Under the pieces are notes generated by a model. That model was not told where the DNA came from. It searched no databases and saw only the letters and a list, made by a program, of their open reading frames with translations. A program made the translations under genes and the position numbers. Below, in pieces: positions 22,338 to 37,355 of a DNA stretch of 64,000 bases. Source of the stretch: Shimia thalassica (GTDB taxonomy: Bacteria; Pseudomonadota; Alphaproteobacteria; Rhodobacterales; Rhodobacteraceae). The stretch lies in assembly GCF_001458215.1 (NCBI RefSeq), contig NZ_CYTW01000003.1:310001-374000 (forward strand), read 5' to 3'. The stretch's first letter is position 1. Each line of letters opens with the position of its first letter.

Positions 22338-23879
22338 TTAGCCGCCCTGATTGCGCTGCAGTCCTTCGAGAACCTGATCAATCGAGAAGCTGGCTGGCTT
22401 CTGACGAGGGGGGTATTTCACGAAAGTCTCGAGGAATTCCCCGACAAAGACCTGTGCCGGCACCAGAAGATAGAGCCGCTCAAAGCGCCAGTTGGTGTAT
22501 CCGGAAGCTTCTTCCTGCGCGCGCTCGAAAGGATCGCTGTAAAGATCGATCAGCTTGGGAACACGAAGGGGAACAAAGGGTTCTTCCCAAACATCAAAAC
22601 CTTCCGCGCGCTGTTCGGCGAACACCAGTTTCCAGCGGTCATAGCGCAGGTTCACGAGATCACCACCGTCAGAGAAATAGAAGAACTCTCTGCGAGGGCC
22701 TTCTTCGGCTTCACCCTTGAAGTAGGACATGAAGTCATAGCCATCGAGATGAACCGGCTCGTTGCCTTCGCCAAAGGGTGCCTCGGTGAGCATCCGCTCT
22801 TTCATGTCAGTGTCGCCAAGGGCGGACATGAATGTCGGGAACCAGTCAAGGTGGCTGATGATCTCGTTGGACTTGCGTCCGGGCTCGATCACGCCGGGCC
22901 ATTTGATCATCATGGGCACGCGGTATCCGCCTTCCCAGTTGTCGTTCTTTTCACCTTTGAAGGGGGTTGTGCCCCCATCAGGCCAGCTGAACACTTCGGC
23001 GCCGTTGTCCGTGGAATACATCACAACGGTGTTGTCCGCGATCCCAAGCTCGTCAAGACGGTCAAGCATTTGGCCAACCATTTTGTCGTGCTCGACCATG
23101 CCATCCGGATAAATGCCGAGACCCGTCACGCCTTGGCTTTCGGGTTTCAGGTGGGTGTTAATGTGCATCCGTGTGGTGTTGTACCATAGAAAGAACGGCT
23201 TATCCTGCTCAACCGCACGGTTCATAAAGTCGATGGCACCTGCGGTGACTTCTTCGTCAATCGTCTCCATGCGTTTGCGGGTCAGCGGGCCGGTGTCTTC
23301 GACAGTGCCGTCAGACGAGGATTTGATCACACCACGCGGGCCGAACTTTTCGCGAAACTCCGGATCCTTGGGATAGTCCACGCTTTCCGGCTCTTCTTCG
23401 GCATTCAGGTGGTAGAGGTTGCCAAAGAACTCATCAAACCCGTGGTTGGTCGGAAGGTGCTCGTCGCGGTCGCCAAGGTGGTTCTTGCCGTATTGCCCCG
23501 TCATATAGCCTTTCGACTTCATATACTCGGCAATGGTGGGGTCTTTTTCCGACATGCCTTCTTTGGCACCGGGAAGACCCACCTTGAGCAATCCGGTCCG
23601 GAACCCGGACTGGCCTGTCACAAAGGATGCGCGCCCCGCAGTACAGGACTGTTCACCATAAGAGTGCGTGAACAGCATGCCTTCGTTTGCAATCCGGTCA
23701 ATGTTGGGGGTTTCGTACCCCATCATGCCTTGGTTATAGGCGCTGACGTTCCAATAGCCGACGTCATCCCCCCATATCACCAAAAAGTTGGGTGTATCCG
23801 CTGCGAGCGCCATTGAGGATGTCATCATCCCCATGGACAGCGTTGCGGCAAATGCCGCTCGTTTCATTAAACCTATCAT
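22338..23879 (-). CDS. Exported sulfatase (arylsulfatase, formylglycine type)
   Basis: The 513-residue enzyme starts with a signal peptide ending near SSMALAA, so it is exported to the periplasm or beyond. The FGly motif CxAGR (SCTAGRASFVTGQ, about residue 81) supplies the cysteine that a formylglycine-generating enzyme must oxidise. The metal-binding WGDDVGYWN motif precedes it, and YSTDNGAEVFSWPDGG follows. Length and motifs fit type I sulfatases of the arylsulfatase A group; the sulfated substrate is unknown. GGAGG nine bases before ATG 23879 supports the start over ATG 23867. It is monocistronic. Confidence 0.9.
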   Translation of the reverse strand: MIGLMKRAAFAATLSMGMMTSSMALAADTPNFLVIWGDDVGYWNVSAYNQGMMGYETPNIDRIANEGMLFTHSYGEQSCTAGRASFVTGQSGFRTGLLKVGLPGAKEGMSEKDPTIAEYMKSKGYMTGQYGKNHLGDRDEHLPTNHGFDEFFGNLYHLNAEEEPESVDYPKDPEFREKFGPRGVIKSSSDGTVEDTGPLTRKRMETIDEEVTAGAIDFMNRAVEQDKPFFLWYNTTRMHINTHLKPESQGVTGLGIYPDGMVEHDKMVGQMLDRLDELGIADNTVVMYSTDNGAEVFSWPDGGTTPFKGEKNDNWEGGYRVPMMIKWPGVIEPGRKSNEIISHLDWFPTFMSALGDTDMKERMLTEAPFGEGNEPVHLDGYDFMSYFKGEAEEGPRREFFYFSDGGDLVNLRYDRWKLVFAEQRAEGFDVWEEPFVPLRVPKLIDLYSDPFERAQEEASGYTNWRFERLYLLVPAQVFVGEFLETFVKYPPRQKPASFSIDQVLEGLQRNQGG

Positions 23880-24121: not shown

Positions 24122-25696
24122 TCAGGTCACGTCGCGATACGAGATTTCTTTTGCATCGACACCTTCGCCCATTTTGGCGCGTCGCACGACCAGACGGTTC
24201 AGCGCATTGATATAGGCTTTGGCCGACGACACCACGGTATCTGTATCTGCCGATTGACCGGTCACGACCATGCCGTCCTCTTCGACCCGAACCGAAACGG
24301 TGGCCTGTGCATCCATGCCTTCGGTGACGGCATGAACCTGATACAATTGCAGGCGTGCCTGGTTTGGATGCAGATCACGAATGGCTTTGAACGTGGCATC
24401 AACCGGCCCATCCCCAAACGCAGTCGCCGAGATGTCCTTGCCATCGATTTCCATTTCAACGGTGGCTTCCGCCTGACCGCCCGTGCCGCAGACAACTTTC
24501 ATCGAGACCAGCTTTAGGGCATCGTTTTCATCGTCGCCGCCGACACGCATCAGCGCGATCAGGTCATCGTCCAGAACCTCTTTCTTGCGGTCGGCAAGAT
24601 CCTTGAACCGGACAAATACGTCTTTCAGCTGGTTGTCGCCAACCTCAAAGCCCAAATGCTCGAGTTTGTCACGCAGCGCCGCCCGTCCCGAGTGTTTGCC
24701 CAAGGGCAGGGAAGTGCCGGACAGGCCCACATCTTCGGGGCGCATGATCTCGAAGGTTTCCTTGTTCTTCAGCATGCCGTCCTGATGGATGCCCGACTCG
24801 TGGGCAAAGGCGTTTTTACCGACGATGGCCTTGTTGAATTGCACCGGAAAGCCCGACACAGTCGCCACACGACGCGAGATTTGCATCAGCTTTCTGGTGT
24901 CGATCCCTGTGTGCCAAGGCATGATGTCATTGCGCACCTTCAGGGCCATGACCACTTCTTCAAGGGCGGTGTTGCCTGCGCGTTCGCCCAGACCGTTGAT
25001 GGTGCACTCGATCTGACGCGCGCCCCCTTCAACAGCAGCCAGCGAGTTCGCCGTCGCCATGCCAAGGTCATTGTGACAATGCGTGGCAAAGATCACCTCA
25101 TCGGCACCGGGCACAGTTTCGATCAGCCGTTTGATCAGATCAGCGCTTTCAACTGGCGCCGTATACCCAACCGTATCAGGAATGTTGATCGTAGTCGCGC
25201 CGGCTTTGATGGCAATTTCGATCACGCGACACAGGTAATCCCATTCGGTCCGTGTGGCATCCATCGGGGACCATTGCACGTTTTCACACAGGTTACGCGC
25301 GTGGCTGACGGTTTCGTGGATCTTGTCCGCCATTTCGTCCATGGTCAGGTTCGGGATCGCACGGTGCAGTTCCGAGGTGCCGATAAACGTGTGGATGCGG
25401 TTTTTCTCGGCGTGTTTCACAGCCTCCCAGCATCGATCAATATCGGCAAAGTTCGCACGCGCCAGCCCGCAAATGCGGCTGTTTTTCGCGTTTTTGGCAA
25501 TCTCGCTGACGGCTCTGAAGTCCCCTTCCGAAGCAATCGGGAACCCGGCTTCGATGATGTCCACGCCCATCTCGTCCAGCATGCCTGCTATTTCGAGTTT
25601 CTCGTCATGGGTCATGGTCGCGCCGGGCGACTGTTCGCCGTCACGCAGGGTCGTGTCAAAGATCAAGACGCGGTCTTGTTGGGCAGTATCGTTCAT
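24122..25696 (-). CDS. leuA: 2-isopropylmalate synthase
   Basis: This 524-residue enzyme condenses acetyl-CoA with 2-oxoisovalerate, the committed step of leucine synthesis. The N-terminal TIM barrel shows DTTLRDGEQSPGA, the metal-binding HCHNDLGMA and the signature GLGERAGNTALEEVVM. The C-terminal third is the LeuA regulatory domain that gives leucine feedback inhibition. AAGAGAG about eight bases before the ATG is a plausible ribosome site. A leucine-rich short frame and alternative hairpins occupy the upstream 165 bases, suggesting leader-peptide control. A tetraloop terminator ends the transcript. Confidence 0.97.
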   Translation of the reverse strand: MNDTAQQDRVLIFDTTLRDGEQSPGATMTHDEKLEIAGMLDEMGVDIIEAGFPIASEGDFRAVSEIAKNAKNSRICGLARANFADIDRCWEAVKHAEKNRIHTFIGTSELHRAIPNLTMDEMADKIHETVSHARNLCENVQWSPMDATRTEWDYLCRVIEIAIKAGATTINIPDTVGYTAPVESADLIKRLIETVPGADEVIFATHCHNDLGMATANSLAAVEGGARQIECTINGLGERAGNTALEEVVMALKVRNDIMPWHTGIDTRKLMQISRRVATVSGFPVQFNKAIVGKNAFAHESGIHQDGMLKNKETFEIMRPEDVGLSGTSLPLGKHSGRAALRDKLEHLGFEVGDNQLKDVFVRFKDLADRKKEVLDDDLIALMRVGGDDENDALKLVSMKVVCGTGGQAEATVEMEIDGKDISATAFGDGPVDATFKAIRDLHPNQARLQLYQVHAVTEGMDAQATVSVRVEEDGMVVTGQSADTDTVVSSAKAYINALNRLVVRRAKMGEGVDAKEISYRDVT

Positions 25697-25728: not shown

Positions 25729-25782
25729 GGCGCGAAGCGACGATCCTCTGAGCGGTCGCGCCTATAACGGCACGCTCAGAGG
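25729..25782 (-). promoter_or_regulatory. Competing hairpins between the leucine leader and leuA
   Basis: Hairpin A pairs CCTCTGAGCG with CGCTCAGAGG (25773-25782 with 25745-25754), and its first arm contains the leader stop codon. Hairpin B pairs GGCGCGA with TCGCGCC (25756-25762 with 25729-25735). The two interleave, so a simple secondary structure can hold only one. That arrangement is expected of an attenuation-type switch, although neither hairpin is followed by a T-run. Confidence 0.5.
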
Positions 25783-25859
25783 CGGGCTAGGAGAAGAAGG
25801 TCGGCCAGAATCGCAGCGCGAATGCGCTGTGCGGGTGCTGCGATATGTGCCTTGGTCAT
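25776..25859 (-). CDS. Putative leucine leader peptide upstream of leuA
   Basis: This 27-codon frame ends in LADLLLLARL, with four consecutive leucine codons CTT CTT CTC CTA seven codons before the stop; CTA is rare in GC-rich genomes. It lies 79 bases upstream of leuA and overlaps one arm of a strong hairpin. Such an arrangement is typical of ribosome-mediated attenuation, where leucine starvation stalls the ribosome in the leucine run. No Shine-Dalgarno is visible. A second ATG lies immediately before this one in frame. A TATATT box 7 bases upstream of that first ATG could allow a leaderless start. The peptide itself need have no function. Confidence 0.5.
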   Translation of the reverse strand: MTKAHIAAPAQRIRAAILADLLLLARL

Positions 25860-26040
25860 CATGCTGTGAAATATACATGCCTTTGGGTAAATGAAAACCC
25901 TCAAATCGGGCTTTTTGCGCGCGACGGAAATCGTCCGGAACCGGTGAAAATTGGTATGCTCAAATTAATCCTTTCCGGACCTTAATGATCTTCCAGTGGC
26001 GGCCTATCTGTTGCCCCAGGCCAGCAGAAGGAGAATGAAG

Positions 26041-27473: not shown

Positions 27474-28877
27474 TTAGCCGTCTGTTTTCAAAGCGCCATC
27501 TTCCCAGTCGCCCGTGGCCTCTTCGCCTGTTGCATAGCGCATCGTGCCTTCGCCCTGACGTTTGCCGGCTTTGAACATGCCCTCATAGACATCTCCGTTG
27601 GCATAGGTCGCAACACCTTTGCCGCTGATTTCGCCACTTGCCCACGCACCTGCATATTTGAACCCGTCGGGCATGCGGATTTCACCAGTGCCGTGGCGTT
27701 GACCGTCAGCAAACTGGCCTTCGTAGACCGTTCCGTCCGGATAGGTGGCCATGCCGTTGCCGTGACGCTGGCCGTCTTGCCAGTCTCCCTCATAGCGATA
27801 GCCGTCTGCATAGGTCATCACACCTTTGCCGTGGTTGCGCGCGTTCAGGAAAGACCCCGTATAGACAAGCCCGTTGGCATAGGTGGCCGTTCCTTCGCCT
27901 TCGATAACGCCGTTTTTCCAACCGCCGTCATAGGCCGACCCGTCAGGATAGGTGATTTTCCCCGTGCCATCGGCCAGATCATTGCGGAACTGGCCCACAT
28001 AGATCGATCCGTCCGGATAGGTCACCTGACCATCGCCTTCGATATGGCCGGACACCCAGCTGCCGACATAGGTATATCCGTCAGAGCCGGTAAATGTGCC
28101 CTGACCATCGCGTTTGTCCGCCTGGAACGTGCCTTCATAGATATCGCCATTGGCGTAAATCACTTTGCCGGTGCCTTCGCGTTGTCCCGCAACCAGCTGG
28201 CCTTCGTAGACATCGCCGTTGGGTTGGGTCAAAACACCCGTCCCTTCGATTTGTCCGGCACGCCACAGACCTTCATAGATCAATCCGTCCGGCATGGTCA
28301 GCTTGCCGTCACCTTCGCGTTCGCCGGCAACAATCTGGCCCGCATAGATCGCGCCATCCGGATAGGTGATCCGCCCCATGCCTTCTTTGACACCATTGAC
28401 CCAGTCACCGTCATAGACATAGCCGCCGGGGCTGGTCATGACACCTTTGCCGTGGTGCATCGCGTTCAGGAAACCGCCCTCGAAACGCACACCGTTGGCA
28501 TAGATCGCAACGCCGGTGCCGTTGATCTTGCCGTCTTTCCATTCGCCTTCATAGGTGCCGCCATCGGTAAAGGTGATCTTGCCGATGCCTTCGGGTTTGC
28601 CTTTGGCAAACTGGCCCTCGTAAATGGATCCGTTCGGAAACCGCGCCTGACCCTTGCCTTTGATATCGCCGTCGACCCATTCGCCAACGTACTCATAGCC
28701 GTTCGGCAGGCGATACGTGCCGATTCCGTGCTGCAATCCGCCCTTGAACGTGCCTTCGTAAACGCCACCGTCATCATACTGCTTGGTCAGGATATCCCCG
28801 TCCTGCGCCGAAACAGCTGTAGCCGTACCAAGTAACAGCGTCATTGCTGCAATCTTCATTGCCTGTCTGTTTTTCAT
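27474..28877 (-). CDS. Exported MORN-repeat protein
   Basis: After an N-terminal signal sequence (MKNRQAMKIAAMTLLLGTAT, cut near VSAQ) the 467-residue protein is almost entirely tandem 23-residue MORN repeats of the form YEGxFxxGxxxGxGxxxxxxG, roughly eighteen copies. Repeats such as YDGDWVNGVKEGMGRITYPD are clearly recognisable. The repeats form an elongated beta sheet; in other bacteria they occur in membrane-associated or secreted scaffolds. Molecular function is unknown. The frame continues 12 codons upstream, but ATG 28877 gives the best signal peptide; ATG 28859 is an alternative. Confidence 0.85.
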   Translation of the reverse strand: MKNRQAMKIAAMTLLLGTATAVSAQDGDILTKQYDDGGVYEGTFKGGLQHGIGTYRLPNGYEYVGEWVDGDIKGKGQARFPNGSIYEGQFAKGKPEGIGKITFTDGGTYEGEWKDGKINGTGVAIYANGVRFEGGFLNAMHHGKGVMTSPGGYVYDGDWVNGVKEGMGRITYPDGAIYAGQIVAGEREGDGKLTMPDGLIYEGLWRAGQIEGTGVLTQPNGDVYEGQLVAGQREGTGKVIYANGDIYEGTFQADKRDGQGTFTGSDGYTYVGSWVSGHIEGDGQVTYPDGSIYVGQFRNDLADGTGKITYPDGSAYDGGWKNGVIEGEGTATYANGLVYTGSFLNARNHGKGVMTYADGYRYEGDWQDGQRHGNGMATYPDGTVYEGQFADGQRHGTGEIRMPDGFKYAGAWASGEISGKGVATYANGDVYEGMFKAGKRQGEGTMRYATGEEATGDWEDGALKTDG

Positions 28878-29033
28878 TCTTCTTGCCCCCGAGGGTCCAT
28901 CCCATGCTGGCATGCAGCCTTGGGAGAAACCTAAATCAGCGCGCGGCTCTGGGCAACGTCTTTTGGCTGTTTACACTTTTCCTCGCGCTGGGTTCTGTTA
29001 AATCTGCTGCAAGAGACGCGACAGGAGGACCAC

Positions 29034-37104: not shown

Positions 37105-37266
37105 GGGACGTGAGTCGGGAGAACCGGAAGTATCCGGTGCCGAAGGAGCAACCGCCCCGGAAACTCTCAGGCCGACAGGACCGACTCGCCGTAAAAATGA
37201 ACTCTGGAGAGAGGCGCACAGCGTCCGCCGAAGGGATAACGATCTCAGGCCAAAGGACAGAGGGGG
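37105..37266 (+). promoter_or_regulatory. Tandem glycine riboswitch controlling gcvTHP
   Basis: Two similar aptamers stand in series. The first (about 37112-37187) is closed by GAGTCGG/CCGACTC and contains GCCGAAGG and CTCAGGC blocks. The second (about 37200-37266) contains CCGCCGAAGG and CTCAGGCCAAAGGACAGAGG. These are the conserved boxes of the glycine (gcvT) RNA motif. Position directly ahead of gcvT fits activation of glycine cleavage when glycine is plentiful. The expression platform lies in the 90 bases before the gcvT start. Confidence 0.93.
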
Positions 37267-37355
37267 CATCGCCCGTACGGCGCTAATCCGTGCGAAAGGT
37301 TGATGCCGGACGTTTTCCATTCGTGGACTGCTCCGGGAGGGAAGGAGCAAGAACC

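Follow-up and report, generated by a model that had tools for sequence, protein, structure and literature searches.

The leuA gene of Shimia thalassica is preceded by a real, conserved RNA element. Judged by sequence comparison, this is a member of a known and poorly understood kind of leader, the LEU element of actinobacterial leuA, in another phylum, and the comparisons bring new evidence on its possible mode of action. Covariation and codon statistics suggest that translation of a short leader open reading frame (ORF) gates the ribosome-binding region of leuA, and the leucine codons seem to serve two ends, sensing the amino acid and, as one strand of a stem, masking the start of the next gene. 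We consider it probable that this alphaproteobacterial LEU element subjects leuA to translational control by the leader ribosome, where we infer the stalling as well as the direction and level of control.

A leucine-rich leader upstream of leuA

All positions refer to the window, i.e. the whole 64,000-nt stretch of S. thalassica DNA that was analyzed, and those of the leader region are collected in Table 1. The leader ORF encodes MMTKAHIAAPAQRIRAAILADLLLLARL and ends in ...LADLLLLARL before its stop; counted from the first ATG it has 28 codons, from the second 27. An earlier note on this DNA had described such a frame, with the codons CTT CTT CTC CTA and one further leucine codon, 79 bases upstream of leuA, and its coordinates were verified. 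The gene under leader control is presumed to be leuA. A sulfatase-family gene (22338-23879, PF00884, E 3.1e-52) follows leuA in the same orientation. Elsewhere, the window holds a gene for a MORN-repeat protein (27474-28913, minus strand; 11 stretches above threshold, PF02493) and a tandem pair of glycine riboswitch aptamers (37106-37270, plus strand; Rfam RF00504, 59.5 and 47.1 bits).

Table 1. Positions of the leader, its predicted pairings and leuA in the window
Feature	Position	Strand	Details
Promoter-like site	25897-25870	minus	TTTTCA (25897-25892), 16-nt spacer, TATATT (25875-25870)
Leucine-rich leader ORF	25862-25776	minus	28 codons plus TGA
Leader leucine run	25799-25788	minus	CTT CTT CTC CTA
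P1 5' strand	25799-25785	minus	Leucine codons plus the one that follows; core TTCTCCT (25795-25789)
P2 5' arm	25782-25773	minus	CCTCTGAGCG; holds the leader stop codon
Further leader leucine codon	25781-25779	minus	CTC
Leader stop codon	25778-25776	minus	TGA
Spacer, leader stop to leuA ATG (25696)	25775-25697	minus	79 nt
P3 5' strand	25762-25756	minus	GGCGCGA; within the P2 loop
P2 3' arm	25754-25745	minus	CGCTCAGAGG; perfect 10-bp helix with the 5' arm
P3 3' strand	25735-25729	minus	TCGCGCC; 7-bp pairing interleaved with P2
P1 3' strand	25726-25709	minus	Purine-rich stretch before leuA; core AGGAGAA (25720-25714)
leuA, 2-isopropylmalate synthase	24122-25696	minus	NCBIfam TIGR00973 leuA_bact, 667.7 bits (cut-off 598.7)

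Conservation was assessed in 80 leuA loci, the best 80 of the matches listed, from named genomes that by title are mostly Rhodobacteraceae sensu lato. The element lies before leuA, or before a cupin gene preceding leuA, in 78 of the 80; the exceptions are L069, which lacks it, and L076, for which just 21 nt of upstream sequence are available. Both the leucine run and the hairpins are thus kept in close relatives, the point on which the earlier note had staked its reading, and that reading was not refuted. The 78-row set used below (the Rhodobacteraceae set) leaves out L069, L076 and L016 (a repeat of L014) and includes the window as one row.

Before the window leader, one promoter-like site was found (shuffle mean 0.3); its -10 box TATATT ends 7 nt 5' of the leader ATG, and transcription likely starts at or near this ATG. 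Inspection by eye revealed no Shine-Dalgarno (SD) sequence before the leader. Across the Rhodobacteraceae set, 46 of 78 leaders have an ATG 6-8 nt downstream of the end of a strict -10 box (TAnnnT), and in all 46 this ATG is in frame with the leader, while shuffled regions showed this box and ATG spacing in a mean of 3 and a maximum of 8 rows. Several of the other 32 leaders carry, by eye, a TATAAA- or TATAAC-type box at the same place. Because of this -10 box so close to an in-frame ATG, we infer that the leader is probably leaderless, as the earlier note had suspected from the lack of a visible SD, and the kept spacing argues against a transcription start downstream of 25776.

We further searched genomes with covariance models. 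The first, R1, with P2 as its sole helix, gave a single match in its own genome, before leuA, and matched 193 of 198 Rhodobacteraceae genomes (presence was counted here, whatever the place relative to leuA) and 26 of 385 Alphaproteobacteria genomes, in all 26 of which leuA follows. The second, R2, was built from the R1 set plus 21 of the newly matched loci, all from outside Rhodobacteraceae, and used at E up to 0.1. It matched 95 of the 385 genomes, once each and with leuA following in 95 of 95; 74 of these matches are outside the 21 scan loci in its training. The remaining 290 gave no R2 match at this threshold, and as the scans score only the best first-look candidates (12-24 per genome), such absences are weak evidence. 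In a phylum scan of 299 genomes, with the share of other classes among them not stated, 44 matched, all of them Alphaproteobacteria. Chance or artefact as the origin of the element was rejected on the basis of the 78 of 80 loci, the 193 of 198 Rhodobacteraceae genomes and the 95 of 385 genomes of the class.

The surroundings of the element vary. A single gene separates it from leuA in L004, L011, L020 and L033; this intervening gene encodes ∼118 aa in these four as well as in L086 and L089, and its product in L011 is a cupin (Cupin_2, E 1.3e-11). The LeuA proteins encoded after the element in L183, L195 and L206 are only 25-28% identical to that of the window. LeuA of L195 is of the TIGR00970 type (716.1 bits, cut-off 697.4) and that of the window of the TIGR00973 type, i.e. 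the same leader precedes two types of LeuA. L067, a Planktomarina metagenome-assembled genome, has a shortened, AT-rich version whose leader ends in QNLLLALSSN and which keeps short forms of P2 and P3. L218 (Sinorhizobium meliloti pSymB) carries a leucine-rich frame ending in SLLLLGLIRGCRVR before its stop, ∼160 nt upstream of a leuA copy, and gave no R2 match.

Leucine codons and conserved pairings

The leader bears the mark of coding sequence. Counted back from the stop, codons -7, -6, -5 and -4 specify leucine in 64, 74, 71 and 78 of 78 Rhodobacteraceae rows, respectively. The entropy of these leucine codons is 0 to 0.77 bits at positions 1 and 2 and 1.23 to 1.94 bits at the third, and all 78 rows use TGA as the stop. 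For the most part, the pairing P1 (see below) begins downstream of codons -7 and -6. Of the 138 leucine codons at -7 and -6, 18% are CTA and 27% CTT, compared with 1.3% and 8.8% in leuA genes. In 46 long window ORFs (chosen mechanically), CTA makes up 2.0% and CTT 19.5%; for S. thalassica, only CTA stands out because the window ORFs already carry CTT at the latter frequency. In many other families, leaders have only the last leucine codons before the stop, often as Leu-Arg-Leu.

These leucine codons can also pair. In the minimum-energy fold of the window element (169 nt), P1 consists of 13 pairs in three runs and encloses P2, with its core ending 17 nt 5' of the leuA ATG. The single-sequence signal is mild (z -1.92 against shuffles, 9 of 200 of which fold equally well). 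Since MAFFT left the P1 3' strand unaligned in A1, the alignment of the 78 Rhodobacteraceae sequences, P1 was assessed by a duplex search comparing each leader's own with permuted partner regions. In the Rhodobacteraceae rows, the score was 16.09 with the own partner and 12.71 ± 0.29 with permuted ones (0/2000), and a contiguous P1 of at least 7 bp is present in 38 of 78 rows and absent from 40.

Outside this family, 98 loci could be evaluated, namely 119 loci minus 13 Rhodobacteraceae, 4 repeats, L136 and L141 (of uncertain position) and 2 without a clear start. Here, the score was 16.82 with the own partner, 14.23 ± 0.26 with permuted partners (0/2000) and 13.82 ± 0.29 for shuffled regions, and a contiguous P1 of at least 6 bp was found in 77 of the 98. 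Matched changes of both strands include GGTCCTTC/GAAGGACC, CTTTCGCT/AGCGAAAG, GCTGCTCCT/AGGAGCAGC and AGATTCTTCG/CGAAGAATCT. Comparative sequence analysis thus shows a conserved stem between the leucine codons and the purine-rich stretch that precedes leuA. This base stem and the wide distribution of the element were both absent from the earlier note.

The position of P1 relative to leuA differs between lineages. Of the 77 non-family duplexes, 48 have the end of the 3' strand 4-14 nt and 20 have it 24-34 nt upstream of the chosen leuA start; as an SD, where present, helped in picking these starts, P1 is biased toward the start, which leaves the own-partner comparison unaffected. In the 38 Rhodobacteraceae rows with at least 7 bp, the distance to the start is 5-11 nt in 11 and 16-23 nt in 22, the other 5 being different or unclear, i.e. 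in most of them the 3' strand is placed further upstream than an SD usually is. In L004, L011, L020 and L033, P1 ends 5-8 nt before the start of the intervening gene.

Within P1 lie the two pairings that the earlier note had reported from the window, a perfect 10-bp hairpin with the leader stop in its first arm and an interleaved 7-bp pairing. Both are present and conserved in relatives: in A1, 97.8% of cells are paired in P2 and 79.3% in P3 with two extension pairs, with 3 and 4 pairs, respectively, changed on both sides. Cells changed on both sides number 61, as opposed to 19.8 ± 6.7 in shuffles (0/500), and the covariation score drops when partners are slid. The P3 score in Rhodobacteraceae was 19.87 versus 17.69 ± 0.30 upon permutation (0/1000). 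Conservation of P2 and, within Rhodobacteraceae, of P3 is thereby shown by comparative sequence analysis. The same is not true of the simple mutual exclusion of the two hairpins put forward in the earlier note: both are kept with compensatory changes in Rhodobacteraceae, and their order is compatible with a pseudoknot. The arrangement would fit one of the H-type, as proposed for the actinobacterial LEU element. In 100 loci outside Rhodobacteraceae, P3 gave no signal (14.2 versus 14.5 ± 0.27), and P3 as a universal part of the element was rejected.

A folded RNA of this sort might be bound by a protein or another ligand, the leader peptide then not being the sensor, which was the view of the 2005 authors for Actinobacteria. 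The pseudoknot-like structure in Rhodobacteraceae agrees with it, as do Streptomyces coelicolor mutant data cited in PMC1262725. However, a ligand-bound RNA would leave unexplained why the leucine codons are kept at positions 1 and 2 and free at the third, why CTA is enriched and why an in-frame ATG follows at a fixed promoter distance in 46 of 46 cases; P3, moreover, is unsupported outside Rhodobacteraceae. We therefore regard this explanation as improbable.

Probable translational control of leuA and its alternatives

The reading that we favour is control of leuA translation by the leader ribosome. With ample leucine, ribosomes would complete the leader and depart, and the RNA would refold such that the leucine codons, being the 5' strand of P1, capture the purine-rich region where ribosomes bind before leuA. 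P1 would then sit over the P2 hairpin holding the leader stop codon, to which Rhodobacteraceae would add the pseudoknot-like P3, and initiation at leuA would be hindered. When charged tRNA-Leu is scarce, a ribosome would stall on the leucine codons, covering the 5' strand of P1 and not P2, and the leuA region would be left free.

A classical leucine attenuator with an intrinsic terminator and a T-run was ruled out, as none occurs in the window and T-runs are rare in relatives. In line with the earlier note, which had seen no T-run, no terminator-like site was found in the window leader region (shuffle mean 0.4), and TTTT follows P2 or P3 in just 3 of 78 Rhodobacteraceae loci and P2 in 6 of 100 others. 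That note had proposed a Rho-dependent or translational mechanism in place of the classical one. Its translational branch is the one we hold to be probable, and ribosome-mediated transcriptional attenuation before leuA, through its Rho branch or through pausing without a T-run, strikes us as unlikely. The latter would account for the attenuator-type layout of leader ORF and interleaved hairpins, and rare T-runs are what a Rho-type case predicts. On the other hand, termination gives no obvious reason for P1 and its partner stretch beside the leuA start, which are nonetheless matched species by species, and in 48 of the 77 non-Rhodobacteraceae duplexes the 3' strand stops 4-14 nt short of the start, at the place of an SD.

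We simulated stalling by pseudoknot-free folding with a ribosome mask and scored the openness of the region from -16 to -5 before the leuA start. In the 98 non-Rhodobacteraceae loci, a mask on the leucine codons raised openness from 0.338 to 0.465 (69 up, 16 down), while a control mask further upstream gave 0.363 (27 up, 22 down). In Rhodobacteraceae (75 of 78 rows), the change was from 0.541 to 0.609 (38 up, 19 down; control 23 up, 31 down). The effect in this family is small because the P1 3' strand mostly lies 16-23 nt before the start (17 in the window). For the window alone, simulated stalling lifted openness just from 0.724 to 0.765. That its P1 core lies 17 nt from the ATG and that stalling barely alters accessibility in this model speak against the favoured reading in the window. 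Further points against this reading are the small simulated effect across Rhodobacteraceae, the 40 of 78 rows lacking a contiguous 7-bp P1, the missing P3 signal elsewhere, the 290 class genomes that gave no match, the shortened leucine runs of many other families and the cited S. coelicolor mutants. With the ribosome-binding region mostly open already (0.724), translational masking alone looks weak there, which is a point for the Rho-type alternative. If translational control holds in this lineage as well, P1 might act where the 30S footprint ends, via a standby site, or weakly.

The simulation also touches on a third alternative. In the case of TnaC, tryptophan alters release at the leader stop codon; likewise, the leader peptide might be an arrest peptide that senses leucine, with leucine altering release at the leader stop. 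The last leader residue is proline in 96 of 100 leaders outside Rhodobacteraceae, and most of the non-Rhodobacteraceae Alphaproteobacteria leaders examined show LxLxxP before the stop. The stop codon itself lies within P2 and is TGA in 78 of 78 Rhodobacteraceae rows, and a mask placed on it opens the leuA region in simulation, too (0.338 to 0.419 in non-Rhodobacteraceae loci). Yet the proline codon CCC falls within the P2 5' arm and is explicable by pairing, and Rhodobacteraceae leaders end in leucine in 60 and in proline in 6 of 78 rows. Besides, holding the ribosome while leucine abounds would free leuA, the opposite of what end-product control requires. An arrest peptide is hence very improbable in our view, and we give hardly any credence to its extension, in which the LxLxxP C-terminus and the stop inside P2 would form one ancient switch gating leuA in both Alphaproteobacteria and Actinobacteria. 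Taken together, translational control is favoured over Rho-type termination, a ligand-bound element and an arrest peptide because T-runs are rare, P1 is species-matched and simulated stalling opens the leuA region in most loci outside Rhodobacteraceae.

Relation to known leaders

The leader of the enterobacterial leu operon has tandem leucine codons, including the rare CUA, responds to leucine and ends in a classical terminator with a T-run. The window leader shares the run of leucine codons, whereas it lacks the terminator and is unmatched by the Rfam family: at gathering scores, Rfam yielded no leader-family match here, and at E up to 10 one unrelated weak match. In Sinorhizobium meliloti, rnTrpL likewise is an alphaproteobacterial leaderless leader ORF before an amino acid biosynthesis gene, but one concerned with tryptophan and described as a transcription attenuator (PMC10117765). 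Streptomyces lividans leuL1 is reported to be a leaderless leader, MRFGLLLLSCRGEGL, before leuA with no typical Rho-independent terminator (PMC8079986); it differs in belonging to another phylum and in that its leaderless nature was seen by RNA-seq, as opposed to being deduced from the sequence here.

The closest known system is the LEU element described for actinobacterial leuA (Seliverstov et al. 2005, PMC1262725). In that publication, attenuation via the leader peptide was judged unlikely owing to cited S. coelicolor mutants, a bound protein was proposed instead, and co-occurrence of the element with an ML1624-like helicase was put forward. Our literature search found no description of the LEU element in Alphaproteobacteria, although an earlier one may exist. 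The alphaproteobacterial R2 model, built without Actinobacteria, matched the actinobacterial leuA leaders of Nonomuraea (E 0.00039), Microbacterium (0.0024) and Nocardia (0.018), these E-values being rough, and each match spans the leucine-rich leader; the leader of Tsukamurella, one of the four actinobacterial loci, gave no R2 match. When arms picked by eye in these four loci were compared with shuffles, P1 stood out in one (Microbacterium, 0.005) and P3 weakly in two (0.043 and 0.049).

The two elements have in common the position before leuA, a leader ORF with a run of leucine codons and the lack of a terminator. Both contain two interleaved helices, a proposed pseudoknot in the LEU element and covarying here within Rhodobacteraceae, as well as a base stem formed by the leucine codons. 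The partner of this stem is the leuA SD itself in the LEU element; here, the SD is a candidate partner in 11 of 38 Rhodobacteraceae rows, where 5-11 nt separate the 3' strand from the start, and in 48 of 77 duplexes elsewhere (4-14 nt), and the distance is 16-23 nt in 22 of the 38 rows, the window among them. A difference concerns the stop codon, which lies inside the P2 5' arm in Alphaproteobacteria and, by eye, further downstream in the actinobacterial loci. The likeness may reflect common descent, transfer or convergence. Either way, the LEU element has been an orphan since 2005, known from one phylum, with no Rfam model matching the window copy and no agreed mechanism in the literature examined. 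Its occurrence in many families of Alphaproteobacteria, always before leuA where checked, now provides many independent examples of it, in bacteria that are easy to handle.
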